IMG/VR virus record: IMGVR_UViG_3300044522_000545
Span: 1 to 39,136 of that record
Length of the DNA stretch: 39,136 nt
DNA from: a virus
Reading direction: 5' to 3' (one strand)
Below are positions 619 through 29,495 of the stretch, one piece after another. The translations under genes were made by a program, and so were the position numbers. The notes below the pieces were generated by a model. The model was not told the DNA's origin. It worked only from the letters and a program-made list of their open reading frames with translations, and did no database searches. Each line of letters starts with the position of its first letter. Positions within the stretch are counted from its first letter, which is position 1.

Positions 619-646
619 TTGACAGGGGCTGAATCAATGGTATACT
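619..646 (+). promoter_or_regulatory. early sigma70 promoter, cassette 1
   Basis: TTGACA, 16-bp spacer, TATACT with extended -10 TGG. The -10 ends 6 nt before the ATG at 653. This is the only early cassette promoter with a 16-bp rather than 17-bp spacer. Confidence 0.9.
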
Positions 647-652
647 ACCCGC

Positions 653-865
653 ATGAACACCGAACACACCTACGACTTCGTCTCAACTCATCCTCCACGA
701 AAAACCCCAAAGGATAAGGTTGTCGCCCCCTCCGTGGACTCCACCAAGAAACTCCTTGAGGAAATCAAGGAGTTGCAGAAGTTGTTGGCAACCTACAAGG
801 CAACCACACAGAAGTTGATCGTCGAGAAGAATCTTCTCTTGGACATCATCAAGGGGATCAAGTAA
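653..865 (+). CDS. early cassette 1 protein, 70 aa, coiled-coil C-terminus
   Basis: First gene of the early array. The ATG lies 6 nt after the promoter -10 box and has no Shine-Dalgarno, so translation is probably leaderless. The first 30 residues are polar and Pro-rich; from about residue 31 a Leu/Lys/Glu-rich segment (KKLLEEIKELQKLL and on to the C-terminus) should form a coiled coil, implying dimerisation or binding to a host protein. No family recognised. It has its own promoter and its own terminator, so it is monocistronic. A role in early takeover of the host is inferred only from promoter class and size. Confidence 0.8.
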   Translation: MNTEHTYDFVSTHPPRKTPKDKVVAPSVDSTKKLLEEIKELQKLLATYKATTQKLIVEKNLLLDIIKGIK

Positions 866-923
866 CGGTGAAGAATGCTCTCATCCGTGTGTGGTCATCA
901 CTCCGAAGAGGTTGACCACCCTC

Positions 924-966
924 AAACTCCCCCTCATGCCGCAAGGTGTGAGGGGGAGTTTTTTCT
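924..966 (+). terminator. intrinsic terminator, cassette 1
   Basis: The stem CTCCCCCTCATGCC pairs with GGTGTGAGGGGGAG around a GCAA tetraloop, extended by AAA/TTT pairs and followed by a T tract. The 58 bp between the stop and this hairpin contain a smaller inverted repeat (GTGGTCA/TGACCAC). Confidence 0.9.
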
Positions 967-989
967 TTGGATTTTTTCGTGCAAAGGGG

Positions 990-1018
990 TAGACAGGGCA
1001 TCGAATCAATGGTATACT
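990..1018 (+). promoter_or_regulatory. early sigma70 promoter, cassette 2
   Basis: TAGACA (one mismatch from TTGACA), 17 bp, TATACT with extended -10 TGG; the -10 ends 6 nt before the ATG at 1025. This is the weakest -35 of the array. Confidence 0.85.
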
Positions 1019-1024
1019 ACCCGC

Positions 1025-1255
1025 ATGAAGACCACCACCACCCCGTCATTCACCTACATCATCACCACTCAGACCCTCTCATCAGGCTTTGAGGGTCAAT
1101 CGGGCGAGCCGTCGATGTTCAAGGTTGAGTCGCCTCGTCGCCTCTTTCGAGGTGACATCGTGCGATGTATGCAGCCTCTTGGATATGATCGTGCGGTTGA
1201 CAGCCTCGACTTCAAGGAGTTGAGCAGCATCGGCACGATTGTCTTCGAGGGCTGA
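1025..1255 (+). CDS. early cassette 2 protein, 76 aa
   Basis: The start at 1025 is chosen because it sits at the position shared by all cassettes, 6 nt after the -10 hexamer; a longer in-frame reading back to 875 would translate the terminator and promoter and is rejected. The protein begins MKTTTTPSF, followed by a Thr/Ser-rich stretch and a probably beta-rich central part (FRGDIVRCMQPLGYDRAVDS), ending in an acidic tail. No known domain seen. Monocistronic, leaderless and with its own terminator. Confidence 0.8.
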   Translation: MKTTTTPSFTYIITTQTLSSGFEGQSGEPSMFKVESPRRLFRGDIVRCMQPLGYDRAVDSLDFKELSSIGTIVFEG

Positions 1256-1270
1256 CCTCGTATCCTCATG

Positions 1271-1308
1271 CTCCTCCTCATGCCGCAAGGTGTGAGGAGG
1301 AGTTTTTT
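1271..1308 (+). terminator. intrinsic terminator, cassette 2
   Basis: CTCCTCCTCATGCC and GGTGTGAGGAGGAG pair around a GCAA tetraloop, followed by six T. Compared with cassette 1 the stem carries compensating changes (CCT/AGG for CCC/GGG), so pairing is conserved. Confidence 0.9.
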
Positions 1309-1333
1309 CTTTGGATTTTTATCGCTGACCCCA

Positions 1334-1362
1334 TTGACATAGAGAATCTTTTGTGGTAAGAT
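1334..1362 (+). promoter_or_regulatory. second upstream sigma70-like promoter before cassette 3
   Basis: TTGACA, 17 bp, TAAGAT with extended TGG, about 85 bp upstream of the main cassette promoter. The same element occurs before cassettes 6 and 8 with almost identical sequence. A transcript from here would start near 1369 and run through the main promoter, giving a leadered mRNA. Confidence 0.65.
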
Positions 1363-1419
1363 GGATACGGACGACTAAAATTCCGAAGAAAAATCCTAAA
1401 AGATTTCCGCGCAAAGGGC

Positions 1420-1448
1420 TTGACACCGTAGTGAATCAATGGTATATT
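1420..1448 (+). promoter_or_regulatory. early sigma70 promoter, cassette 3
   Basis: TTGACA, 17 bp, TATATT with extended TGG; 6 nt to the ATG at 1455. Confidence 0.88.
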
Positions 1449-1454
1449 ACCCAC

Positions 1455-1778
1455 ATGAAGAACACCACCACATATTACACCACCCCAACCGCACTCGCGT
1501 CAGACAAGAACCGCCTCATCCTCGTCGAGGCGTTCAATCAGTACTTGGACGAGTTCAGCCTCCTCAATTATGAGCGGGTCACTCGTCCGAAGAAGGAAAC
1601 CCTCGATGGGATGCTCGACCGCTGCATCACGCTTGGGGAACTCCTGCCGCTGACTGAGGGCAAGATCACTGCCCTGACGAGCAGTTTCCAACACCTCAAG
1701 AGTTTCAACAATGGGGGAGGCGAAACCTCGATGGACACCATCTCTGACATCTCAGAGATCCTTGAGGCAAAGTTCTGA
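1455..1778 (+). CDS. early cassette 3 protein, 107 aa
   Basis: Starts MKNTTTYYTT at the conserved leaderless position; the in-frame extension to a GTG at 1353 is translated promoter sequence and is not used. The protein is mainly acidic and probably helical (EAFNQYLDEFSLLNYE in the first half; SDISEILEAKF at the end). No family recognised. It is one of three cassettes with an additional promoter about 85 bp further upstream, so it may be expressed over a longer time. It shares its first codons (MKxTTTYY) with cassette 4. Confidence 0.8.
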   Translation: MKNTTTYYTTPTALASDKNRLILVEAFNQYLDEFSLLNYERVTRPKKETLDGMLDRCITLGELLPLTEGKITALTSSFQHLKSFNNGGGETSMDTISDISEILEAKF

Positions 1779-1784
1779 GACCCG

Positions 1785-1810
1785 AACCCCCGCGCAAGCG
1801 GGGGTTTTTT
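1785..1810 (+). terminator. intrinsic terminator, cassette 3
   Basis: AACCCCCGC and GCGGGGGTT around a GCAA tetraloop, then a T tract. The primary sequence differs from cassettes 1 and 2 but the GNRA loop is kept. Confidence 0.9.
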
Positions 1811-1836
1811 CTTTTGGATTTTTTCGTCCAAGGGGC

Positions 1837-1865
1837 TTGACATCGGCTGAATCATATGGTACAAT
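1837..1865 (+). promoter_or_regulatory. early sigma70 promoter, cassette 4
   Basis: TTGACA, 17 bp, TACAAT with extended TGG; spacer contains TGAATCATATGG; 6 nt to the ATG at 1872. Confidence 0.88.
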
Positions 1866-1871
1866 AGACGC

Positions 1872-2060
1872 ATGAAGATCACCACCACATATTACGGCAT
1901 TGTGTATCACGGCGGATCCCTTTTGGGTCTCGGCACATACGGCGAGACCAAATCGTACCGTTCGTTTGCGGCTGCTGAAAAGGCGGTCGCGCGTCTCCTG
2001 AGCAAGTGTCGCAAGATCTGCGGTGGCTCCCCATCGGCAGAAATTTACTCCTGTTGGTGA
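1872..2060 (+). CDS. early cassette 4 protein, 62 aa
   Basis: Begins MKITTTYYGIVYHGG at the leaderless position. The short protein has an N-terminal beta-like half (GSLLGLGTYGE) and a basic helix (SFAAAEKAVARLLSKCRK), then two further Cys residues. The strand-strand-helix pattern looks like a small folded domain, but I cannot assign a family. Monocistronic with its own promoter and hairpin. Inferred early function only. Confidence 0.75.
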   Translation: MKITTTYYGIVYHGGSLLGLGTYGETKSYRSFAAAEKAVARLLSKCRKICGGSPSAEIYSCW

Positions 2061-2068
2061 ACCAACAG

Positions 2069-2092
2069 CCCACCCGAAAGGGTGGGTTTTTT
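2069..2092 (+). terminator. intrinsic terminator, cassette 4
   Basis: CCCACCC and GGGTGGG around a GAAA tetraloop followed by six T. Confidence 0.9.
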
Positions 2093-2116
2093 CTTTGGAT
2101 TTGTTGGTCAAGGGGC

Positions 2117-2145
2117 TTGACAGCGGCTGAATCATATGGTATACT
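2117..2145 (+). promoter_or_regulatory. early sigma70 promoter, cassette 5
   Basis: TTGACA, 17 bp, TATACT with extended TGG; 6 nt to the ATG at 2152. Confidence 0.9.
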
Positions 2146-2151
2146 ACCCGC

Positions 2152-2379
2152 ATGAAGAACACCAACACCTACATCCTCACCATCGGGCAGATCAGCAGCG
2201 AACACGGAACTCACCAAGGGGCTGTTGCAGCATTCTACGACAAGTACCCTGATGGAGATGCGGGTCATTGCGGTGACCTTACAGACGGGGGAGATCGTAC
2301 CCTCTGTTGGGCAGACCCTGTCGATTCAGACGGAGATGACGGCTACAATGCTGTGGGAGAGATCCGCATGAGCCAATAA
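2152..2379 (+). CDS. early cassette 5 protein, 75 aa, acidic
   Basis: Begins MKNTNTYILTIGQ at the leaderless position. The C-terminal half is strongly acidic (DPVDSDGDDGYNAVGE) and the middle contains two Cys and several Asp/Gly residues. The overall charge is clearly negative, so a DNA mimic or an inhibitor of a basic host protein is imaginable, but nothing in the sequence proves it. No family recognised. Confidence 0.78.
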   Translation: MKNTNTYILTIGQISSEHGTHQGAVAAFYDKYPDGDAGHCGDLTDGGDRTLCWADPVDSDGDDGYNAVGEIRMSQ

Positions 2380-2390
2380 GTATCTTCATG

Positions 2391-2426
2391 CTCCCCCTCA
2401 TGCCGCAAGGTGTGAGGGGGAGTTTT
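2391..2426 (+). terminator. intrinsic terminator, cassette 5
   Basis: Same hairpin as cassette 1 (CTCCCCCTCATGCC, GCAA loop) with a shorter T tract (TTTTC). Confidence 0.88.
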
Positions 2427-2451
2427 CTTTGGATTTTTATCGCTGACCCCA

Positions 2452-2480
2452 TTGACATAGAGAATCTTTTGTGGTAAGAT
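2452..2480 (+). promoter_or_regulatory. second upstream sigma70-like promoter before cassette 6
   Basis: TTGACA, 17 bp, TAAGAT with extended TGG; nearly identical to 1334-1362. Confidence 0.65.
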
Positions 2481-2537
2481 GGATATGGACGACTAAAATC
2501 CTGAACAAAAATAAAAAAAGATTTCCGTCCAAAGGGC

Positions 2538-2566
2538 TTGACATCGTAGTGAATCAATGGTATACT
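2538..2566 (+). promoter_or_regulatory. early sigma70 promoter, cassette 6
   Basis: TTGACA, 17 bp, TATACT with extended TGG; 6 nt to the ATG at 2573. Confidence 0.9.
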
Positions 2567-2572
2567 CACCGC

Positions 2573-2842
2573 ATGAAGACCTCAAACCCAACCGCCCTCC
2601 TCGTCATGTACTATGTGGTCACAGGGATCACTCCCCAAGGTTCGCGCCAAAGCGCGAAGTTTCAAACACAAGAGTTCGCAAGAGCGCACCTGACGCATTT
2701 TGTCAGTGGGACGGTGTGGGCGGTCAATCCGTACCACAAGCGTTCGCTTGTAGCGCGGGTGAGAACATACACGGTGTGGGCGGTCAATCCGTACCACAAG
2801 CGTTCGCTTGTAGCGCGGGTGAGAACATACACACCCGCCTGA
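2573..2842 (+). CDS. early cassette 6 protein, 89 aa, with perfect internal duplication
   Basis: Begins MKTSNPTALL at the leaderless position. After about 46 residues it contains a 20-residue block (TVWAVNPYHKRSLVARVRTY) twice in tandem, encoded by a perfect 60-bp duplication at 2711-2830; the protein ends TPA just after the second copy. The block is basic and probably helical. Because the unit is a multiple of three the frame is kept, so the ancestor was probably 69 aa. No family recognised. A second open frame across the repeat (2557-2910) is a shadow. Confidence 0.75.
   Translation: MKTSNPTALLVMYYVVTGITPQGSRQSAKFQTQEFARAHLTHFVSGTVWAVNPYHKRSLVARVRTYTVWAVNPYHKRSLVARVRTYTPA
2711..2830 (+). 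repeat. perfect 60-bp tandem duplication
   Basis: The unit 2711-2770 is repeated without any mismatch at 2771-2830, inside the cassette 6 gene. Identity at silent sites shows it is recent, or an assembly artefact. Confidence 0.95.
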
Positions 2843-2857
2843 TCCTCACCCGAAGAG

Positions 2858-2885
2858 ATCCCACCCGAAAGGGTGGGATTTTTTT
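2858..2885 (+). terminator. intrinsic terminator, cassette 6
   Basis: ATCCCACCC and GGGTGGGAT around a GAAA tetraloop followed by T tract. Confidence 0.9.
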
Positions 2886-2906
2886 GGATTTTTTCGTCCA
2901 AAGTGC

Positions 2907-2935
2907 TTGACATCATGTGAATCATATGGTATACT
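2907..2935 (+). promoter_or_regulatory. early sigma70 promoter, cassette 7
   Basis: TTGACA, 17 bp, TATACT with extended TGG; 6 nt to the ATG at 2942. Confidence 0.9.
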
Positions 2936-2941
2936 ACCCGC

Positions 2942-3283
2942 ATGAAGAACACCACCAACACCACAATGACCGCCACCGCCCTCAAGTTGCTTGATATGCA
3001 CAAGCAACTCCAAAAAATGTTTGAGATCGAGTGCGACATCGAATTCGAGGCTCGTCGAATACAATCGACGGGCGGCAATAATCAAGAGGAAGTGCGTCTC
3101 ACAGCCTGTATCACAGACAGCCTGTATCAGGCTCTGTGCGCTGTCTCAAGCGCAGCCAATGTGATCGAGGAGCGAGCAGCGCAGAAGCGCGACGATGTGG
3201 GCTTGGAACGCCTTGTCGATAACGCAATGGTGGACTGTGATCCACGCACGGACATTGATTGGATGTCCAACGGCGCAGACTGA
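2942..3283 (+). CDS. early cassette 7 protein, 113 aa, helical
   Basis: Begins MKNTTNTTMTATALKLL at the leaderless position. Long stretches without Pro or Gly and with heptad-like spacing (LKLLDMHKQLQKMFEIE; LYQALCAVSSAANVIEERAAQ) suggest an all-helical protein, probably oligomeric. No recognised family. It ends with an acidic segment (DCDPRTDIDW). Monocistronic, with its own promoter and terminator. Confidence 0.78.
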   Translation: MKNTTNTTMTATALKLLDMHKQLQKMFEIECDIEFEARRIQSTGGNNQEEVRLTACITDSLYQALCAVSSAANVIEERAAQKRDDVGLERLVDNAMVDCDPRTDIDWMSNGAD

Positions 3284-3298
3284 TAATGACCCTTCATG

Positions 3299-3337
3299 CC
3301 CTTCTCCACGCCGAAATGGTGTGGGGAGGGGTTTTTT
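3299..3337 (+). terminator. intrinsic terminator, cassette 7
   Basis: A 14-bp stem (CCCTTCTCCACGCC with GGTGTGGGGAGGGG, using some G-T pairs) around GAAAT, then six T. Confidence 0.88.
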
Positions 3338-3362
3338 CTTTGGATTTTTATCGCTGACCCCC

Positions 3363-3391
3363 TTGACATAGAGAATCTTTTGTGGTAAGAT
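3363..3391 (+). promoter_or_regulatory. second upstream sigma70-like promoter before cassette 8
   Basis: TTGACA, 17 bp, TAAGAT with extended TGG; third copy of the element at 1334 and 2452. Confidence 0.65.
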
Positions 3392-3448
3392 GGATATGGA
3401 CGACTAAAATCCCGAACAAAAATCCTAAAAGATTTCCGCGCAAAGGGC

Positions 3449-3477
3449 TTGACATCGTAGTGAATCAATGGTATACT
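3449..3477 (+). promoter_or_regulatory. early sigma70 promoter, cassette 8
   Basis: TTGACA, 17 bp, TATACT with extended TGG; 6 nt to the ATG at 3484. Confidence 0.9.
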
Positions 3478-3483
3478 ACCCAC

Positions 3484-3951
3484 ATGAAGACCTCAACCAC
3501 CACATCCTTGGCAGCAAAACTCCTCTTTGAAACCGCAGTCGAATCCCACTACGCAAACAGTTGCAAGTGGAACATCTCAAGTCAGACACATATGTGTCTC
3601 ACAGGAGCATCAGAGGAATCAGGAATTCCTTACGGAATTCTCCACATTGCGATGGGCGAACTCGTCGCCAAAAAATTGCTGCGCGATGTCCATGACACTT
3701 GCCGTGGAATGCTGAAGCAAAACCTCAGCACAACGCGCTACATTACGCCGACACTCAGTTCGATTCCCTCCGAACCAACGATCTGCATGGGCATCAGTTT
3801 CCTTGTCCAAAAGTTTCTTGCGAGATATTCTCGCGAATCGGTGGCATTTGCTGAGTTTGTGACAAAAATCAATCCTGACTTCTCAGAATACAGTCAAGAA
3901 CTTCAGGATTGGTTGGCGATTAGCGAGAACCTGACCATTGGCGATAGATAA
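3484..3951 (+). CDS. early cassette 8 protein, 155 aa (possible winged-helix-like segment)
   Basis: The largest protein of the early array. It begins MKTSTTTSLAAKLL at the leaderless position. Residues about 40-70 (ASEESGIPYGILHIAMGELV followed by AKKLLRD) have the spacing of a winged helix-turn-helix of the kind 'selection helix, then a Lys/Arg-rich wing', but the match is by eye and weak. The rest is mixed, with a Thr/Ser-rich linker and an acidic C-terminus (NPDFSEYSQELQDW). If the helix-turn-helix is real it could be an early regulator. One of three cassettes with an extra promoter upstream. Confidence 0.78.
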   Translation: MKTSTTTSLAAKLLFETAVESHYANSCKWNISSQTHMCLTGASEESGIPYGILHIAMGELVAKKLLRDVHDTCRGMLKQNLSTTRYITPTLSSIPSEPTICMGISFLVQKFLARYSRESVAFAEFVTKINPDFSEYSQELQDWLAISENLTIGDR

Positions 3952-3960
3952 CCCTTCATA

Positions 3961-3997
3961 CTCCCCCTCATGCCGCAAGGTGTGGGGGGGAGTTTTT
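3961..3997 (+). terminator. intrinsic terminator, cassette 8
   Basis: CTCCCCCTCATGCC with GCAA loop and TTTTT. A late promoter box starts at the next base (3998), so one transcription unit ends and another begins with no spacer. Confidence 0.88.
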
Positions 3998-4005
3998 CAT
4001 AAATA
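3998..4005 (+). promoter_or_regulatory. T4-type late promoter box (leaderless geometry)
   Basis: CATAAATA, one mismatch from the T4 late consensus TATAAATA, ending 5 nt before the ATG at 4011. Confidence 0.7.
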
Positions 4006-4010
4006 TCAAT

Positions 4011-4292
4011 ATGGGTAGAATCGCTTCACAAAATCGTTCGATGAGACGGCATAGTCTTTCAATACGAAAAATTATTGAAGATAATGACATATCGTCGATC
4101 CTCTTCACGAAGAAAAATGGGCGCAGACGCAGAATGATCTGCACCCTCAACATGGGGAGGATCCCTGAAGAGGCGCACCCAAGCACCGACATGACCTACA
4201 TCACCTCTCAGATCCGTGTGTGGGATTTGAAGAAGTCGGCATGGCGTTCTTTTCGACCATCAAGTCTAATTGACATCGAAGAAGTGATCTGA
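4011..4292 (+). CDS. small SH3-barrel-like protein (DUF2693-like), 93 aa
   Basis: The only late-promoter gene inside the early array. The core FTKKNGRRRRMICTLN, then IPEEAHP, and the C-terminal RVWDLKKSAWRSFRPSSLI match my memory of the DUF2693 / SH3 beta-barrel-fold proteins of T4-like cyanophages (FTKxDGxxRxMxCTLN ... RVxDxxxxAWRSFR). The N-terminal 30 residues are very basic, suggesting nucleic-acid binding. There is no Shine-Dalgarno; the ATG is 5 nt after the late box, so a leaderless late transcript is predicted. Its job is unknown. Confidence 0.7.
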   Translation: MGRIASQNRSMRRHSLSIRKIIEDNDISSILFTKKNGRRRRMICTLNMGRIPEEAHPSTDMTYITSQIRVWDLKKSAWRSFRPSSLIDIEEVI

Positions 4293-4320
4293 GATTTTTT
4301 CAGATTCTCGCCCAAGGGGC

Positions 4321-4349
4321 TTGACAAGGGCTGAATCATATGGTATACT
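4321..4349 (+). promoter_or_regulatory. early sigma70 promoter, cassette 9
   Basis: TTGACA, 17 bp, TATACT with extended TGG; 6 nt to the ATG at 4356. Confidence 0.9.
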
Positions 4350-4355
4350 TCGCGC

Positions 4356-4679
4356 ATGAAGAACACCAACACCATCACCACCCCCTCAACCGTCAAGTTC
4401 TTCGCGGATACCCGCGAGGGAAAATCATTGTGCGCGGAATTCACGGTGATCGACACCACCGAAAACGGTAGCGTGAGAATTGGATTGGATACCGTTACAG
4501 AGGTGGGAGAGATCGGATATATCTACAGCCGCACCCATGTAGGTGCGATCCTACCTAGATTTGCAATGCAAGCATTCGCACCGATGCACCGTTGGATCAT
4601 GGATGGGGACGGGGAGTGGAACATTGACCTTCACCCGATTCAAGGGATGGGGTTCCAAACGCTCCCGCTCTGCTACTGA
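4356..4679 (+). CDS. early cassette 9 protein, 107 aa
   Basis: Begins MKNTNTITTPSTVKFF at the leaderless position. The sequence alternates hydrophobic and polar residues (GSVRIGLDTVTEVGEIGYIYSRTHVGAIL) and looks beta-rich; the C-terminal part is Trp/Asp-rich (RWIMDGDGEWNIDLHP). No family recognised. Own promoter and terminator. Confidence 0.78.
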   Translation: MKNTNTITTPSTVKFFADTREGKSLCAEFTVIDTTENGSVRIGLDTVTEVGEIGYIYSRTHVGAILPRFAMQAFAPMHRWIMDGDGEWNIDLHPIQGMGFQTLPLCY

Positions 4680-4691
4680 TAACCCTTCATG

Positions 4692-4731
4692 CTCCCCCTC
4701 ATGCCGCAATGGTGTGAGGGGGAGTTTTTTT
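4692..4731 (+). terminator. intrinsic terminator, cassette 9
   Basis: CTCCCCCTCATGCC stem with GCAAT loop, closing GGTGTGAGGGGGAG and eight T. Confidence 0.9.
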
Positions 4732-4756
4732 ATTTGGATTTTTTCACCCAAACCGC

Positions 4757-4785
4757 TTGACAGCGTACTGAATCAATGGTATACT
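4757..4785 (+). promoter_or_regulatory. early sigma70 promoter, cassette 10
   Basis: TTGACA, 17 bp, TATACT with extended TGG; 6 nt to the ATG at 4792. Confidence 0.9.
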
Positions 4786-4791
4786 ACCCAC

Positions 4792-5106
4792 ATGAAGAAC
4801 ACCACCCCAATGGCACACGATGCCTCGTCCACTTGCATGACCTGCTACAAATTCGTAATCGCTGAGTTCACCTCACGCATCACCTCACGCAAGGTGAATA
4901 AAACCCTTTGTACGGGTGACGGATTCGCCACCTACGGTGGTGCGCTCGCGGCGGCAGCACACGCGAGATCGTATTACACCATCGACGGTGACATCATCAT
5001 CACGGAACGACCGCTCACGCAGAAGGAACTTGAAGCCCGATTCCGCGCCCGTGATCGTGAGGAAGCCCAACGCTTCATGCATGGGACGCGCACTCGACCA
5101 ATTTGA
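4792..5106 (+). CDS. early cassette 10 protein, 104 aa
   Basis: Begins MKNTTPMAHDASSTC at the leaderless position; the in-frame reading back to 4543 would pass through a terminator and promoter. A C-x-x-C pair (CMTC) lies near the N-terminus with a third Cys further on, so metal binding is possible but incomplete. The middle is Ala/Gly-rich (YGGALAAAAHARSYY) and the C-terminus is a basic/acidic helix (KELEARFRARDREEAQRF). A short direct repeat (ACCTCACGCA, twice) lies at about 4868-4892. No family recognised. Confidence 0.78.
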   Translation: MKNTTPMAHDASSTCMTCYKFVIAEFTSRITSRKVNKTLCTGDGFATYGGALAAAAHARSYYTIDGDIIITERPLTQKELEARFRARDREEAQRFMHGTRTRPI

Positions 5107-5132
5107 CTTAGCGGACGGCTGAGTCAAGAAGA

Positions 5133-5162
5133 CCCTCCACATGGTGTGGAGGGTTTTTTTTT
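5133..5162 (+). terminator. intrinsic terminator, cassette 10
   Basis: CCCTCCACA and TGTGGAGGG around TGG, then nine T. The block GCTGAGTCAAGAAGA just before it is repeated exactly before the cassette 11 terminator. Confidence 0.9.
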
Positions 5163-5183
5163 GAATTTTTTCGTCAAAGGGGC

Positions 5184-5212
5184 TTGACAGCGGACTGAAT
5201 CAATGGTATACT
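5184..5212 (+). promoter_or_regulatory. early sigma70 promoter, cassette 11
   Basis: TTGACA, 17 bp, TATACT with extended TGG; 6 nt to the ATG at 5219. Confidence 0.9.
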
Positions 5213-5218
5213 ACCCGC

Positions 5219-5467
5219 ATGAAGAAAACCACTACCGTCCCTGCGTTAATCCCCAACATCGAAAAGCGACTTGCCGATTTTGAAACGGCGGTCAAGAACC
5301 CCACGCCGAAAGACACGGTGCGGAGCATGGACATCCGTGCGACGAAAATCGACAGGCTGCTTGGCATTCTCCGTGACCTCAAGGCAGAGGGATCAAGTGC
5401 CAAGGCATACGATTTCGCAAAGAGGCTAACCCAAGCGCAAGCAAGCAGGTGGTTGATTAGACGGTAA
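5219..5467 (+). CDS. early cassette 11 protein, 82 aa, basic
   Basis: Begins MKKTTTVPALIPNI at the leaderless position. It is basic and probably all-helical (EKRLADFETAVKN; DRLLGILRDLKAEG; AKAYDFAKRLTQAQASRWL). The first 14 residues parallel those of cassette 12 (MKNTTTVPASIANI) while the rest differs, suggesting that cassettes exchange 5' or 3' parts. No known family. Own promoter and terminator. Confidence 0.78.
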   Translation: MKKTTTVPALIPNIEKRLADFETAVKNPTPKDTVRSMDIRATKIDRLLGILRDLKAEGSSAKAYDFAKRLTQAQASRWLIRR

Positions 5468-5495
5468 TCCGTAGGGTCGGGCTGAGTCAAGAAGA

Positions 5496-5522
5496 CCCTC
5501 CACATGGTGTGGAGGGTTTTTT
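5496..5522 (+). terminator. intrinsic terminator, cassette 11
   Basis: Identical hairpin to cassette 10 (CCCTCCACA/TGTGGAGGG) and six T. Confidence 0.9.
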
Positions 5523-5547
5523 ATTTGGATTTTGTTGGTCAATAGGC

Positions 5548-5576
5548 TTGACAGCGGCTGAATCATATGCTATAAT
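5548..5576 (+). promoter_or_regulatory. early sigma70 promoter, cassette 12
   Basis: TTGACA, 17 bp, TATAAT (perfect consensus); TGC before the -10; 6 nt to the ATG at 5583. Confidence 0.92.
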
Positions 5577-5582
5577 CACCGC

Positions 5583-5906
5583 ATGAAGAACACCACCACC
5601 GTCCCTGCGTCAATCGCCAACATTCACCTCATCTCTTTCCCTGAAGCCACCAAACTTGAGGCTCGCGAGTGGGGCAAGCATCTCTACAACGATTCACGCA
5701 TGATCAGCCACAAGCAGTACGATCAAGCGTATTGGGACGCGCTGAACCGCATGAACAAGTCGAGGAGCGCATACATTCGCTCGATGGCGAGGAAGATCTG
5801 TGCGGGTCTTGGATGCCACCCATCTTATCGCCACCTTCGATGGGTGGCAACACAACCGATCTATGTGATCGAGTGTTGGGCGGGGATTGCGCTGCCGAAG
5901 GTCTGA
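5583..5906 (+). CDS. early cassette 12 protein, 107 aa
   Basis: Begins MKNTTTVPASIANI at the leaderless position. The body is basic with several aromatic residues (QYDQAYWDALNRMNKSRSAY) and three Cys in the last 40 residues. The C-terminus is hydrophobic (IYVIECWAGIALPKV) but too short and mixed for a clear membrane span. No family recognised. It stands behind a perfect-consensus promoter and is followed by a GAGA run and terminator. Confidence 0.78.
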   Translation: MKNTTTVPASIANIHLISFPEATKLEAREWGKHLYNDSRMISHKQYDQAYWDALNRMNKSRSAYIRSMARKICAGLGCHPSYRHLRWVATQPIYVIECWAGIALPKV

Positions 5907-5920
5907 GAGAGAGAGAGAGA

Positions 5921-5941
5921 CCCCGCGAAAGCGGGGTTTTT
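5921..5941 (+). terminator. intrinsic terminator, cassette 12
   Basis: CCCCGC and GCGGGG around a GAAA tetraloop, five T; preceded by a GA dinucleotide run. Confidence 0.88.
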
Positions 5942-5966
5942 CTTTGGATTTTTTCGTTCAAGGGGC

Positions 5967-5995
5967 TTGACAGTGGGTTGAATCTTTGGTATACT
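5967..5995 (+). promoter_or_regulatory. early sigma70 promoter, cassette 13 (no ORF)
   Basis: TTGACA, 17 bp, TATACT with extended TGG, fully intact, but the position where the ATG normally lies reads AAT. Confidence 0.88.
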
Positions 5996-6001
5996 ATTCG
6001 T

Positions 6002-6064
6002 AATTGCAATCGGCGTAAAGCGCGTCGAATCCTCCCATGCCGCAAGGTGTGGGAGGGTTTTTTT
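6002..6064 (+). ncRNA. candidate ~63-nt small RNA from an ORF-less cassette
   Basis: An intact early promoter (5967-5995) and an intact GNRA-loop terminator (6031-6066) are separated by only about 35 bp with no start codon at the usual place. The predicted transcript starts near 6002 and ends in the T tract near 6064. Its unique 5' part is about 29 nt (AATTGCAATCGGCGTAAAGC and 9 more), followed by the terminator hairpin, the usual architecture of a short regulatory RNA. The alternative is a cassette whose gene was deleted. The promoter shows no decay, which favours a selected transcript or a recent deletion. Confidence 0.5.
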
Positions 6065-6066
6065 TT
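6031..6066 (+). terminator. intrinsic terminator, cassette 13
   Basis: CCTCCCATGCC and GGTGTGGGAGG around GCAA, followed by nine T. Confidence 0.9.
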
Positions 6067-6087
6067 GAATTTTTTCGTCAAAGGGGC

Positions 6088-6116
6088 TTGACAGCGGCTG
6101 AATCATATGCTATAAT
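6088..6116 (+). promoter_or_regulatory. early sigma70 promoter, cassette 14
   Basis: TTGACA, 17 bp, TATAAT; 6 nt to the ATG at 6123. Promoter and spacer are identical to cassette 12. Confidence 0.92.
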
Positions 6117-6122
6117 CACCGC

Positions 6123-6410
6123 ATGAAGAACACCAACACCACATTCGTAATCTCACCGACCTACGACAACCCATACCCATCGGCATACGGTGCGCTGCGT
6201 GGAGGAATCTCAGCGCGACTTGATTCGGTGCTTTTTCGCGCCGATCTCCTCAAGGATCAGAATGATCCGATGGTTGAGGAGATCCGAATCCTCGCCAAGA
6301 GGATGGAAGAGTGCATCAAGGAGTGCGACAACGCAGTCGAAATTCACAACAACCAAAGGCTAAAGTGCTTAGAGGAGTTGGCAATCGCCGAGGCGAACAT
6401 CAACCGATAA
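6123..6410 (+). CDS. early cassette 14 protein, 95 aa, coiled coil
   Basis: Begins MKNTNTTFVISPTYDN at the leaderless position. Residues about 30-95 are a long amphipathic helix region (LDSVLFRADLLKDQ; EEIRILAKRMEECIKECDNA; LKCLEELAIAEANI) with three Cys, likely a helical hairpin or coiled-coil dimer. No family recognised. Last gene of the early array; its terminator abuts a perfect late box. Confidence 0.78.
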   Translation: MKNTNTTFVISPTYDNPYPSAYGALRGGISARLDSVLFRADLLKDQNDPMVEEIRILAKRMEECIKECDNAVEIHNNQRLKCLEELAIAEANINR

Positions 6411-6419
6411 CCCTTCATG

Positions 6420-6457
6420 CTCCCCCTCATGCCGAAATGGTGTGAGGGGGAGTTTTT
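6420..6457 (+). terminator. intrinsic terminator, cassette 14
   Basis: CTCCCCCTCATGCC with GAAAT loop and GGTGTGAGGGGGAG, five T; two bases later comes TATAAATA. Confidence 0.9.
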
Positions 6458-6818: not shown

Positions 6819-6826
6819 CATAAATA
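6819..6826 (+). promoter_or_regulatory. T4-type late promoter box (leaderless geometry)
   Basis: CATAAATA, ending 5 nt before the ATG at 6832. Confidence 0.72.
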
Positions 6827-6831
6827 AAGAT

Positions 6832-7038
6832 ATGAAAAATCGTCTCAAAAATGAATCAAATATCTTCGTGGATGCATTTGATGAAACCATGCTGTATGGG
6901 ATGAAATTGGGATATGTCAATGTTTTTTGGGATGAGAAGGGTATGCATACCTTTTTCATCTATGCAAATGGAACCAAGGCTGTGTTAAATGGTTCATGGG
7001 AAAAGAGCGAACCTTACGATTATTGGAATATCAACTAA
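6832..7038 (+). CDS. hypothetical protein, 68 aa
   Basis: The start at 6832 is preferred over an in-frame ATG at 6787 because the latter lies inside the upstream terminator, and 6832 sits 5 nt after a late box. No Shine-Dalgarno, so a leaderless late message is predicted. The protein is small and aromatic-rich (MLYGMKLGYVNVFWDEKG, then HTFFIYANG), probably a beta sheet with a short helix. Its TAA overlaps the ATG of the next gene (TAATG), so the two should be co-translated. No family recognised. Confidence 0.68.
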   Translation: MKNRLKNESNIFVDAFDETMLYGMKLGYVNVFWDEKGMHTFFIYANGTKAVLNGSWEKSEPYDYWNIN

Positions 7039-12593: not shown

Positions 12594-12601
12594 GATAAAT
12601 A
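12594..12601 (+). promoter_or_regulatory. T4-type late promoter box (leaderless geometry)
   Basis: GATAAATA, ending 5 nt before the ATG at 12607. Confidence 0.72.
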
Positions 12602-12606
12602 CCTTC

Positions 12607-13146
12607 ATGTCCAACTCATTTAATGACTCAATCAACCGCATTCTCCTAGAAAGTCGCAATGTAGATCTTTCAGGAAAATACACCTTGTTCACTCTTTATA
12701 CTGACAACACCGCTACCCTTCATATCTTTGAAGACGCAGGGAGTTATGAAGCAATGAAATTCAAATTTTCGTCAAACGATAACATCAAGAGACTTGGCGC
12801 GACAAAACTTCCAGAAAACACCACTTTCAAGAAATTGTCTGAATCCTTGGAACGCAAGTTCAATGTTCCGAAGGACACCATCAACATCCGTACTCACGAC
12901 AAGGCTCAAGAACAGCCCACAGAGGCTCCTGTAGCCCCAAAGGCAGTCAAGGAGTCCTCCAAGACACCCAAGAAGGGATCGGTCTTAGAGAGCGTTCTAC
13001 GGGGCAGAGAGAAGTTCAACGCGAAACCACGAAATCAACAAGAGATCAACAGCCTTCCTACAGAGGCAACGGAACCGTCAATCAATTCGTTTAGACCCAA
13101 TTCATCTCAAAAAATTGATATGTCTAATTTTCAAGGTTTGGACTAA
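12607..13146 (+). CDS. putative head-packaged protein, 179 aa
   Basis: The ATG at 12607 is 5 nt after a late box with no Shine-Dalgarno. The N-terminus MSNSFNDSINRILLESRN has an L-L-E site near residue 15. Residues about 20-95 form a small alpha/beta domain (GKYTLFTLYTDNTATLHIFED); the remainder is Pro/Lys/Glu-rich and probably disordered, with RGREKFNAKPRNQQ and a C-terminal MSNFQGLD. No known family. It is followed after 3 nt by the next gene, probably coupled. Confidence 0.7.
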   Translation: MSNSFNDSINRILLESRNVDLSGKYTLFTLYTDNTATLHIFEDAGSYEAMKFKFSSNDNIKRLGATKLPENTTFKKLSESLERKFNVPKDTINIRTHDKAQEQPTEAPVAPKAVKESSKTPKKGSVLESVLRGREKFNAKPRNQQEINSLPTEATEPSINSFRPNSSQKIDMSNFQGLD

Positions 13147-16135: not shown

Positions 16136-18622
16136 TTATATAAAGTTAGTTCTCTTTGTCATGGATCTTCGACGCTTACTATTTGCACGACCGCGCTTCC
16201 CCTTTGACTTTCGTGCCGCCTTGACTGCTCTGCGTGATCGAAGTGCCTTCTCGGCTCCACCAACCTTCACACAAGTTCTACCGCCCCGCTTTCCAAGTTT
16301 CTGACCTGTGGGACACTTGAAAATGATTTTCTTTTTACCACCACGAATGACAATCTTTCGTTTGGCTCCTTCAGCCAACAACTCAAGTTCTTCAGCCGAA
16401 ATGAGTTCTAGGGCAGTCTCAACATCAATGGTGTCAACCCCATGAACAACATAATGTGTTTCCATAAGGGTAGTGTTTTTAATGTCAAGAGATAGTTTCA
16501 AACTTTCTGCTTGAGATCTCTTTTCCATTGCTTGTTTTGCTGCTAGGACAACATCCTTATCCTTATGTTTCAATCCTTGACTAATATGTTCAGGAGTAGC
16601 ATTTGGGTGTTGCATTGCTGCATGGGCAACAGCATAATGCTCATGTTTCAATCCTTGACTAATATGTTCAGGAGTAGCATTTGGGTGTTGCATTGCTGCT
16701 CGGGCAACATCATAATGCTCATGTTTCAATCCTTGACTAATATTGTCAGGACTAGCATTTGGGTGTTGCATTGCTGCATGGGCAACAGCATAATTCTCAT
16801 GTTTCAATCCTTGACTAATATTGTCAGGACTAGCATTTGGGTGTAAGACTGCTGCTCGGGCAACCCTCCAATTCTCATGTTTCAATCCTTGACTAATATG
16901 TTCAGGACTAGCATTTGGGTGTGAGACTGCTGCTCGGGCAACATTATAATCCTCATGTTTCACTCCTTGACTAATATGTTCAGGAGTAGCATTTGGGTGT
17001 GAGAGTGCTGATTGGGCAACAGCAGCATCCTTATGTTTCAATCCTTGACTAATATGTTCAGGAGTAGCATTTCGGTGTGAGACTGCTGCTCGGGCAACAT
17101 AAGAATCCTTATGTTTCAATCCTTGACTAATATGTTCAGGACTAGCATTTGGGTGTGAGACTGCTACTTGGGCAACCCTCCAATCCTCATGTTTCAATCC
17201 TTGACTAATATGTTCAGGACTAGCATTTGGGTGTGAGAGTGCTGCTAGGGAAACCCTATAATCCTTATGTTTCAATCCTTGACTAATATTGTCAGGACTA
17301 GCATCTGGGTGTGAGAGTGCTGCTCGGGCAATCCTATAATCCTTATGTTTCACTCCTTGACTAATATGTTCAGGAGTAGCCTTTGGGTGTTGTATTGCTG
17401 CTCGGGCAACATAATAATCATTATCCTTCAACCCTTGACTAATATGTTCAGGAGTAGCATTTGGGTGTTGCATTGCTGATTGGGCAACCTCATAATTCTC
17501 ATGTTTCAACCCTTGACTAATATTGTCAGGACTAGCATTTGGGTGTTGCATTGCTGCTCGGGCAACCCTATAATCCTTATCCTTCAACCCTTGACTAATA
17601 TGTTCATGAGTAGCCTTTGGATGGCTGACTGCTGCTTGGCGAACACCAAAATACCCATCCTTCAACCCTTGACTAATATGTTCAGGAGTAGCATTTGGGT
17701 GTTCCATTGCTGCTCGGGCAACCTCTATCCGATCAGACTTCATCATTCTTGATAGAATTTCAGGATGAGTGTTTCTTTTGGGATCAGCAAAGTGGGCTTC
17801 AGCGTGACCTTTTCCAAACTCATCGTACATCTTGTGTTGCTTTTCAACACTTAGATTCTTGGCATCACCCGAAAAGAAATCATAGACCTCTTTTTTCTTA
17901 CCCGTCATCAAGGCACTTGTCTGCTTCTGAATATGATGCGCTTCATCAGGTCTGATCGTAGTATTGTCTTGATTCACAATACCTCGATCACCAAAACCAT
18001 GAGAACGAACCATTTCACCTCGATGGTTTGTGTAAAACAAGATCCCGTGACCATGCGAATAGTGCTTGAGGTGGGCTACATCATGATTACCTTTGACACA
18101 CCAAGTACAAGAAGAACTCGTATGCTTCTTGATTGTATTTGAGATTTTCTTGAATTCATCATCGTCCTTGACATCATTGACATGAACCTGATGAACATCA
18201 AGAACCCCATGCTCAGGATGTTGAATCTGACCGATATGGTACTTGTCCATACCCTCAAGTTTACTCGCTGTTACTGTTGATTTTTGGTCACTCTGAGATC
18301 GAAGGAATCTTGATATCGAATCGTGTGTATGATCCTTCAAGTTTCCCGTAAGATCACCATTGGTCTTACCTTTTCTCCATCCTTTGATGACATGCTTGAG
18401 ACTTAGTTCGTCTTCATTTGGATTGTAGGTCTTGTCCAAGAACTGTTTGGTGGCATAAGTCCCCTCATCATGACCTTGAACATGAGGATGCGCTGCCGCT
18501 ATTCTTCTTCTAGCCTCTTCAGGATCCTGATGAACCATAGGATGGTCTTTATGATGCTTCATGTACCGATTGATAAACTCATCAATTTTTGCTTCGATTA
18601 GGTATTCTTTGAATGATATCAT
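16136..18622 (-). CDS. 828-aa protein with fifteen 26-residue HEAT-like repeats and capsid-targeting-like N-terminus
   Basis: The N-terminus MISFKEYLIEAKIDEF resembles the T4 internal-protein targeting sequence, with L-I-E before Ala. Residues about 15-290 form a His-rich domain with CTWC and a GHGILFYTNHRGEM strand region. Residues about 308-697 are fifteen consecutive 26-aa units of the form HPNATPEHISQGLKHKDYxVARAAxx, a two-helix solenoid by pattern. After a helical linker with L-A-E (ELELLAEG) the last 80 residues are extremely basic with two Cys (FKCPTGQKLGKRGGRTC). I infer a packaged protein with a DNA-binding tail and a binding solenoid. The ATG overlaps the previous stop (ATGA). Confidence 0.8.
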   Translation of the reverse strand: MISFKEYLIEAKIDEFINRYMKHHKDHPMVHQDPEEARRRIAAAHPHVQGHDEGTYATKQFLDKTYNPNEDELSLKHVIKGWRKGKTNGDLTGNLKDHTHDSISRFLRSQSDQKSTVTASKLEGMDKYHIGQIQHPEHGVLDVHQVHVNDVKDDDEFKKISNTIKKHTSSSCTWCVKGNHDVAHLKHYSHGHGILFYTNHRGEMVRSHGFGDRGIVNQDNTTIRPDEAHHIQKQTSALMTGKKKEVYDFFSGDAKNLSVEKQHKMYDEFGKGHAEAHFADPKRNTHPEILSRMMKSDRIEVARAAMEHPNATPEHISQGLKDGYFGVRQAAVSHPKATHEHISQGLKDKDYRVARAAMQHPNASPDNISQGLKHENYEVAQSAMQHPNATPEHISQGLKDNDYYVARAAIQHPKATPEHISQGVKHKDYRIARAALSHPDASPDNISQGLKHKDYRVSLAALSHPNASPEHISQGLKHEDWRVAQVAVSHPNASPEHISQGLKHKDSYVARAAVSHRNATPEHISQGLKHKDAAVAQSALSHPNATPEHISQGVKHEDYNVARAAVSHPNASPEHISQGLKHENWRVARAAVLHPNASPDNISQGLKHENYAVAHAAMQHPNASPDNISQGLKHEHYDVARAAMQHPNATPEHISQGLKHEHYAVAHAAMQHPNATPEHISQGLKHKDKDVVLAAKQAMEKRSQAESLKLSLDIKNTTLMETHYVVHGVDTIDVETALELISAEELELLAEGAKRKIVIRGGKKKIIFKCPTGQKLGKRGGRTCVKVGGAEKALRSRRAVKAARKSKGKRGRANSKRRRSMTKRTNFI
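16532..17701 (-). repeat. fifteen tandem 78-bp coding repeats
   Basis: Exactly 15 units of 78 bp with no indel between 17701 and 16532. Units share the HPNA(T/S)P(E/D)(H/N)ISQGLKH core; variable positions cluster at K/E-D-x-x-V-A, the likely exposed helix. DNA identity between units is high, implying recent homogenisation. Confidence 0.95.
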
Positions 18623-18861
18623 TGTGTGAGAGGATTCTTTCTGCGCCACATAGGAGTCTTTGTCCGTGACTTGATAGGAGGAATCTCCCCCGTGGACACT
18701 CCCGCAAGACCCGCTCCTGAAGCCGTGTTAGCGACTCCTGCATCCTCGTCGAGCATGAACATAAGCATCTCCATCTTGGCAGGATCGTTCTGTGCTTCCT
18801 CTAGGAGAGCATTACCCTCTGCTTGAAGGGCTTCTGATAGTACTTGCGAGTATTTCTTCAT
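18619..18861 (-). CDS. small acidic protein with prohead-cleavage-like N-terminus, 80 aa
   Basis: Starts MKKYSQVLSEALQAEGNALLEEAQ: L-S-E before Ala at residue 10 fits the L/I-x-E rule of T4-type prohead protease gp21. The first half is an acidic helix (PAKMEMLMFMLDED); the second half is Gly/Ala/Thr-rich, then basic (RTKTPMWRRKN). It sits between two genes with ATGA overlaps at both ends, so its amount should track the repeat protein. It could be a head-core or scaffold peptide; no family recognised. Confidence 0.72.
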   Translation of the reverse strand: MKKYSQVLSEALQAEGNALLEEAQNDPAKMEMLMFMLDEDAGVANTASGAGLAGVSTGEIPPIKSRTKTPMWRRKNPLTQ

Positions 18862-22548: not shown

Positions 22549-22576
22549 ATTATACGAGATATTTTTGGTTTGTCAA
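22549..22576 (-). promoter_or_regulatory. sigma70 promoter of gp32
   Basis: TTGACA, 16 bp, TATAAT on the minus strand, with a leader of about 35 nt containing AGGAGA. Unlike the early cassettes this message is leadered, which leaves room for translational control such as T4 gp32 autoregulation. Confidence 0.85.
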
Positions 22577-22788
22577 GAAAAAGGTAGAGATTTCTTTCTT
22601 GGACGCAGATTGACTTCCATCGCTTCTTGCTCAATGTTTTCGACAATTGGACGAGAAATATGCTTGGCAATCATGACTACATCAATCGAATGCTCATCAC
22701 ACAGTTCTAAAACAGCGTCCATGTATGTCATTTTTCGGACAGAAACCATGTTTTCAATTAAGTTGGATACTTGTGTGGGGTCGAGCAT
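22573..22788 (-). CDS. gp33-like late-transcription co-activator, 71 aa
   Basis: Small helical protein with QVSNLIENMVSVRKMTYMDA, VLELCDEHSID and IEQEAMEVNLRP, the arrangement I remember for gp33 of T4-like cyanophages (LIE ... SYxDAVxxxCE ... IExEAxxLN). In T4, gp33 links the sliding clamp and RNA polymerase with sigma factor gp55 on late promoters; such boxes are abundant here, and the position next to gp32 agrees with T4 gene order. Start at 22788: the ATG is exactly 6 nt after TATAAT, so this mRNA is also predicted leaderless. The stop overlaps the gp32 promoter -35. Confidence 0.75.
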   Translation of the reverse strand: MLDPTQVSNLIENMVSVRKMTYMDAVLELCDEHSIDVVMIAKHISRPIVENIEQEAMEVNLRPRKKSLPFS

Positions 22789-22794
22789 AAGGGA

Positions 22795-22822
22795 ATTATA
22801 CACTATTTAGTAGATATGTCAA
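22795..22822 (-). promoter_or_regulatory. sigma70 promoter of the gp33-like gene (leaderless geometry)
   Basis: TTGACA, 16 bp, TATAAT; 6 nt to the ATG at 22788. Lies back-to-back with the plus-strand late box at 22825. Confidence 0.88.
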
Positions 22823-29487: not shown

Positions 29488-29495
29488 TATTTATC
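29488..29495 (-). promoter_or_regulatory. T4-type late promoter box
   Basis: GATAAATA on the minus strand, overlapping the stop codon of the ribonucleotide reductase gene; serves the tail-tube-like gene. Confidence 0.72.

Follow-up and report, generated by a model that had tools for sequence, protein, structure and literature searches.

A run of small genes whose start codons lie only a few bases behind their promoters raises the question of how such messages are begun and how ribosomes reach them. The window analysed here, the whole 39,136-nucleotide stretch of the uncultured virus record IMGVR_UViG_3300044522_000545 (IMG/VR), carries an array of this kind at positions 619-6457, and an initial annotation had proposed that its 13 single-gene cassettes give leaderless mRNAs beginning on the A of the ATG. 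From the evidence that follows we judge it quite likely that the cassettes are expressed without leaders, with host sigma70 transcription starting on the ATG or within one base of it. The cassettes, whose sequences were re-read base by base, are the following (aa, amino acids):

619-865, plus strand: cassette 1, promoter 619-646 (spacer 16), ATG 653, 70 aa, terminator 924-961
990-1255, plus strand: cassette 2, promoter 990-1018 (TAGACA), ATG 1025, 76 aa, terminator 1270-1303
1420-1778, plus strand: cassette 3, promoter 1420-1448, ATG 1455, 107 aa, terminator 1784-1807
1837-2060, plus strand: cassette 4, promoter 1837-1865, ATG 1872, 62 aa, terminator 2067-2088
2117-2379, plus strand: cassette 5, promoter 2117-2145, ATG 2152, 75 aa, terminator 2390-2423
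2538-2842, plus strand: cassette 6, promoter 2538-2566, ATG 2573, 89 aa, terminator 2850-2887
2907-3283, plus strand: cassette 7, promoter 2907-2935, ATG 2942, 113 aa, terminator 3298-3332
3449-3951, plus strand: cassette 8, promoter 3449-3477, ATG 3484, 155 aa, terminator 3960-3993
4321-4679, plus strand: cassette 9, promoter 4321-4349, ATG 4356, 107 aa, terminator 4691-4725
4757-5106, plus strand: cassette 10, promoter 4757-4785, ATG 4792, 104 aa, terminator 5126-5160
5184-5467, plus strand: cassette 11, promoter 5184-5212, ATG 5219, 82 aa, terminator 5490-5522
5548-5906, plus strand: cassette 12, promoter 5548-5576, ATG 5583, 107 aa, terminator 5912-5945
6088-6410, plus strand: cassette 13, promoter 6088-6116, ATG 6123, 95 aa, terminator 6419-6453

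The promoter-to-ATG geometry set out in the initial annotation was recovered in 13/13 cassettes. The -35 hexamer is TTGACA in 12 cassettes and TAGACA in one (990), and the spacer, which occurs as two alleles, TGAATCAATGG and TGAATCATATGG, measures 17 bp in 12 cassettes and 16 bp in the one at 619. All 13 -10 elements are TG-extended, nine of them reading TGGTATACT and the remainder TGGTATATT (1420), TGGTACAAT (1837) or TGCTATAAT (5548 and 6088). The gap between the -10 and the ATG is exactly 6 nt, and the ATG is directly preceded by C, in every cassette. The Shine-Dalgarno (SD) tetramers AGGA, GGAG and GAGG were found in none of the 13 cassettes within 20 nt before the ATG, as had also been claimed. 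The strict pattern TTGACA-N16/17-TATAMT-N6-ATG occurred 11 times in the window (ten sites in the array and one upstream of gp32) and not once in 100 dinucleotide shuffles.

Position-by-position comparison revealed a conserved block extending from about -51, where it opens with a TTTTTTCG...CAAAGGGGC stretch, to codon 6 (-51 to +17); it ends abruptly, codon 7 being at background level. The first six codons of the block are ATG AAG AAC ACC ACC ACC and, since conservation runs through codon 6, the start codons belong to the repeated module. Intrinsic terminators on the plus strand alternate with the promoters, 14 terminators and 14 promoters for 14 units (the cassettes and a gene-less unit described below).

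Recurrence of the spacing in related phages

The window belongs to a group of uncultured T4-like phages, as its core genes include gp32 (phrog_224, 5e-110), a gp19-type tail tube, RNR and ThyX. Its gp32 is 54% identical to that of Synechococcus phage DSL-LC03, the nearest named phage by this protein, and up to 83% identical to those of other IMG/VR contigs from different samples. Pattern scans of IMG/VR returned at least six other uncultured contigs carrying arrays of the same geometry, namely G028 (IMGVR_UViG_3300023174_000064, 146 kb), G029 (3300000115_000218), L507 (3300042540_000949, 79 kb), L449, L476 and L450. When the seven arrays, window included, were pooled, 86 of 91 cassettes had the ATG at 6 nt from the -10 and 5 had it at 7 nt; two weak promoters outside the scheme (L476 11762 and L507 756) were left out of the 91, and two cassettes (L449 10434 and L476 11278) for which the script gave 0 nt were counted as 6 nt, since a further ATG in the same frame stands there. 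The 20 cassettes of the G028 array, of which 18 have the 6-nt distance and two have 7 nt, all show a 17-bp spacer, C at -1 and A at +1; the 13 cassettes of G029 all stand at 6 nt.

G028, the relative characterised best, and the window share several genes, among them RNR (73/67% identity), ThyX (64%) and gp32 (56%). The 13 cassette proteins of the window are all absent from G028, and a single gene family, phrog_1086, is common to the two arrays, lying inside the array in both. The arrays of the relatives differ in their spacers, in their -10 elements (TACAAT, TAGAAT and TATAAT), in their discriminators and in their genes, and keep the 6 nt. Because the distance was kept while these features differed, duplication alone is hard to credit as its cause. 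The proposal that the fixed distance is a functionless by-product of recent tandem duplication of the promoter-start module, to which we give very little credence, fits the near-exact repetition of the -51 to +17 block within the window and the two genes that share their first 26 codons, but it is largely refuted by these independent arrays and by the position of their phages in two separate terminase clades.

A T4-type terminase was identified in 6/6 of the other array contigs. In the terminase tree, which does not include the window as it carries no terminase and is tied to G028 by the other genes, the array contigs fall in two supported clades, G028 with L507 (97/96) and G029 with L449, L476 and L450 (100/100); phages devoid of arrays separate the two clades, and two label changes are forced. 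No array was found in 20 named T4-like phages searched whole, some of which have single sites (T4, RB49, KVP40, phiM12, Cr30, HTVC008M, S-PM2, Syn9, S-SM2, DSL-LC03, DSL-LC02, ACG-2014f, P-SSM2, Mel-JY01, immuto, K441, I46, Astolliot, CC_R7 and SdyM_006). The suggestion that the pattern might be a family trait thus held to the extent that it recurs in other contigs, and among T4-type phages the trait is confined to two clades. The array was not found in the gp32 neighbourhoods of close relatives, fragments that may simply not span it, and a distant nucleotide search with the array in phage genomes gave no match to any phage record. Five matches to the exact pattern TGAATCA-N0-3-TGSTATAMT-N6-ATGAA in IMG/VR lay inside conserved genes and were discarded as chance.

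Probable leaderless expression and the alternatives

Transcription by sigma70 RNA polymerase usually starts at the 7th base after the -10, and in 13/13 window cassettes this base is the A of the ATG, preceded by C. A precedent is offered by Deinococcus, in which a -10 motif placed 6-7 bp before the open reading frame (ORF) drives leaderless genes with strict spacing, as tested experimentally (PMC12340547). The A+C content of codons 2-7 amounts to 0.87 in the window array, 0.82 in G028 and 0.72 in G029 vs about 0.5 over the remaining codons of these genes, an enrichment reached in 0/5000 permutations in all three arrays; where genes of the window and G028 are SD-led, the same codons show 0.56-0.62. 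CA repeats after the AUG raise the translation of leaderless messages, and of leadered ones too (PMC9031893). Predicted folding of the first 50 nt of the mRNAs is weak, but not below the expectation from composition. Taken with the spacing kept in independent arrays, which is the strongest evidence, the Deinococcus precedent and the A+C-rich codons lend support, at the level of sequence, to the leaderless expression put forward in the initial annotation.

On this reading a T4-like phage would keep small genes, probably early ones serving host takeover, in a row of plug-in expression cassettes. The sigma70 polymerase of the host would begin each mRNA at a C/A initiator, no more than one base away from the A of the ATG, and ribosomes would load straight onto the 5'-terminal AUG of a message having neither leader nor SD. 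The CA-rich codons 2-6 may assist ribosome loading, and each message would be closed by its own terminator. The exchangeable module would consist of the promoter, the start codon and five further codons, with unrelated ORFs set behind it.

Some observations weigh against this reading. The cassettes of one array share ancestry and therefore the 13/13 agreement does not amount to 13 independent events. The scan patterns demanded at least one such site, which favours arrays, and the resulting contig counts are lower bounds. Two G028 cassettes (141616 and 142282, L384) have the same promoter type followed by a leader with an SD-like AAGGA, and second promoters upstream of cassettes 3, 6 and 8 of the window would supply about 86 nt of leader. 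The separate termination of each gene that had been anticipated applies to this phage; it was not evident in G028, where an excess of terminators was not found. Finally, the cassettes are probably early, as judged from their host-type promoters.

Among the alternatives, the one that survives best is that the messages are nearly leaderless or mixed, starting 1-4 nt before the ATG or partly past its A, with a fraction of them translatable from the AUG. The start chosen by sigma70 polymerase does shift by a few bases, and the 5/91 cassettes at 7 nt agree with such a scheme. However, the C/A at -1/+1 in 13/13 window and 20/20 G028 cassettes constitutes an ideal single initiator, an A at the 7th base is the favoured position, and selection would oppose loss of the AUG; we regard this alternative as unlikely. 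A further alternative is that of leadered, SD-less messages arising from upstream promoters, or of proteins begun at later start codons, the geometry being incidental. This scheme could draw on the second promoters found before three cassettes:

1334-1362, plus strand: second promoter upstream of cassette 3, TTGACA-17-TAAGAT
2452-2480, plus strand: second promoter upstream of cassette 6, TTGACA-17-TAAGAT
3363-3391, plus strand: second promoter upstream of cassette 8, TTGACA-17-TAAGAT

The other ten cassettes, however, have no upstream promoter and nearly all are preceded by an intrinsic terminator, their ATGs lack an SD and the conserved block runs through codon 6, so that leadered messages appear highly improbable.

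The cassette ORFs are collectively coding. All 13 stay open from the ATG to just short of the terminator (P 0.0005-0.09 each in shuffles, with a product of about 1e-22 for the joint chance), most of them have their G+C minimum at codon position 2, and the cassette 6 gene (2573-2842) contains a perfect 60-bp tandem duplication that preserves the frame. These features leave scarcely any room for the idea that the units are sources of regulatory RNAs with spurious ORFs, although the unit at 5967-6060 has no ORF and specifies a strongly folded short RNA, and the proteins are without relatives. The 13 products are essentially unrelated to one another, apart from the 26 codons shared by two genes; searches against PHROGs and Pfam gave no convincing match, and a protein search found no relatives of the longest product. 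The G+C content at codon position 3 is 0.52-0.75 in the cassette genes (653-6410) and 0.28-0.51 in the window's reference genes, which suggests another origin or a codon choice fitted to the host.

Relation to known systems

By description, the closest known architecture in T4-type phages is that of the promoter-early stem-loop cassettes, PeSLs (Arbiol et al. 2010; Comeau et al. 2014, both as cited in PMC4503421). PeSLs are reported to combine a terminator stem-loop and a host-like early promoter, repeated between small ORFans of a T4-like genome, and the module is common while the ORFs are swapped. The same arrangement of terminator stem-loop and sigma70 promoter between ORFs was found in the window for 14 promoters and 14 terminators. 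No gene exchange events between genomes were seen, and the shared start module before unrelated ORFs fits the recombinational shuffling of genes ascribed to PeSLs. Unlike the PeSLs, the window module extends over the start codon and the next five codons and lacks both leader and SD. It also differs from RB49 (Straboviridae), in which the matching promoters lie upstream of the ATG by 13-30 nt, in many cases with an SD.

The myovirus phiYS40, a phage of Thermus, is reported to express an entire class of genes, the middle and late ones, without leaders (Sevostyanova et al. 2007, as cited in PMC3594737). It differs in the genes concerned, in its Thermus host, in which IF2 goes up and IF3 down, and in being not T4-like and without host-like early promoters or an array of single-gene cassettes; the window has host-type sigma70 promoters and an ORFan array in a T4-like phage. 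The TANNNT-led leaderless genes of Deinococcus-Thermus and Actinobacteria (PMC12340547, PMC3160421) likewise lack an SD and have a -10 box that precedes the start codon by some 6-7 bp. Those genes are cellular and mostly without a -35, whereas the window cassettes have the full TTGACA and extended -10 of strong promoters and form an array with terminators.

Leaderless early cassettes of T4-like phages were not described in the literature searched, which covered few subscription journals. The novelty claimed in the initial annotation is narrowed to such cassettes, because phage-wide leaderlessness has a precedent in the middle and late genes of phiYS40. The array appears to unite leaderless expression with cassettes of the PeSL kind.

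Descriptions of phage early genes normally give them leaders with an SD. As a tentative extension, which we think somewhat less probable than its converse, at least two T4-superfamily lineages might run a dedicated leaderless early programme with a CA-rich enhancer, by which captured ORFs would be expressed at once and early messages translated without SD pairing, escaping SD-directed control (RegB-type GGAG cleavage) or competition from host mRNAs. A recurrent array that joins promoter and start codon to the exact base would be the clearest phage case of leaderless translation for a whole gene set, and would explain how T4-type phages gain anti-host ORFs without building a ribosome site. The pattern provides a simple signature for finding short early genes that are overlooked by gene callers or given a wrong start, and the arrays supply dozens of natural sequences to probe what makes leaderless messages efficient, with the G028 cassettes at 141616 and 142282 as natural leadered counterparts for comparison.

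Late promoters and other elements of the window

Three genes of the window begin exactly 5 nt past ATAAATA (at 3999, 6820 and 12595), a leaderless geometry, and in this resemble genes behind T4-type late promoters (TATAAATA, gp55); T4 late transcription begins at that spacing past ATAAATA.

3998-4292, plus strand: late element CATAAATA 3998-4005, 5 nt, gene 4011-4292 (phrog_1086)
6819-7038, plus strand: late element CATAAATA, 5 nt, gene 6832-7038
12594-13146, plus strand: late element GATAAATA, 5 nt, gene 12607-13146

The first of these (phrog_1086, 1e-15) is a non-cassette gene inside the array. The distances between late promoters and ATGs in the relatives are bimodal: nine distinct genes stand at 4-6 nt, one of them with an SD-like tetramer, and 89 stand at 12-45 nt, 53 of them with such a tetramer (none at 12-14 nt). 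Since the distances are bimodal, leaderless late genes are likely across the whole clade, as judged from promoter position; most of its late genes, in contrast, carry leaders with an SD. The leader lengths measured in Lactococcus cremoris show a gap between about 4 and 14 nt (PMC10986495), which supports two initiation modes.

The array also contains a unit with no gene:

5967-6060, plus strand: promoter 5967-5995, predicted RNA 6002-6059, terminator 6027-6060

Its promoter matches those of the cassettes, no ATG follows, and transcription would enter its own terminator. The predicted 58-nt RNA, starting 7 nt after the -10, folds into two hairpins (-31.8 kcal/mol, z -5.0) and is a candidate early small RNA; no convincing complementarity to the cassette mRNA starts was detected. 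Rfam and tRNA scans of the window found nothing. The second promoters at 1334, 2452 and 3363 are nearly identical and are followed by a conserved GGATAYGGACGACTAAAAT leader; a GTG overlaps their -10 and its frame continues into the cassette gene in 3/3 cases.

The strict-pattern site outside the array belongs to a gene for which close relatives have 7 nt and a 15-bp spacer:

22573-22822, minus strand: TTGACA-16-TATAAT-6-ATG, ATG 22788, 71-aa gene upstream of gp32

Regarding the host, WhiB, which would have pointed to Actinobacteria, was absent from the array phages tested. Bacterial genomes yielded 42 scattered single matches and one contig with three in a row, L548 (NYWV01000053.1), from a Porticoccaceae metagenome-assembled genome, with three genes of leaderless geometry and a gene of similar appearance to the CobS-type AAA gene that adjoins the L507 array. 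This evidence was considered too weak for calling Porticoccaceae the host, and is a possible hint.

Two further features were observed among the genes of the window. RNR (29491-31788) contains an intein-like insertion at about residues 331-457, which the 67-73% identical G028 homologue does not have. The gene at 16136-18649 encodes an 837-aa protein with many HEAT-like HPxAxPEHISQGLKHxxYxVARAA repeats, variable in number.

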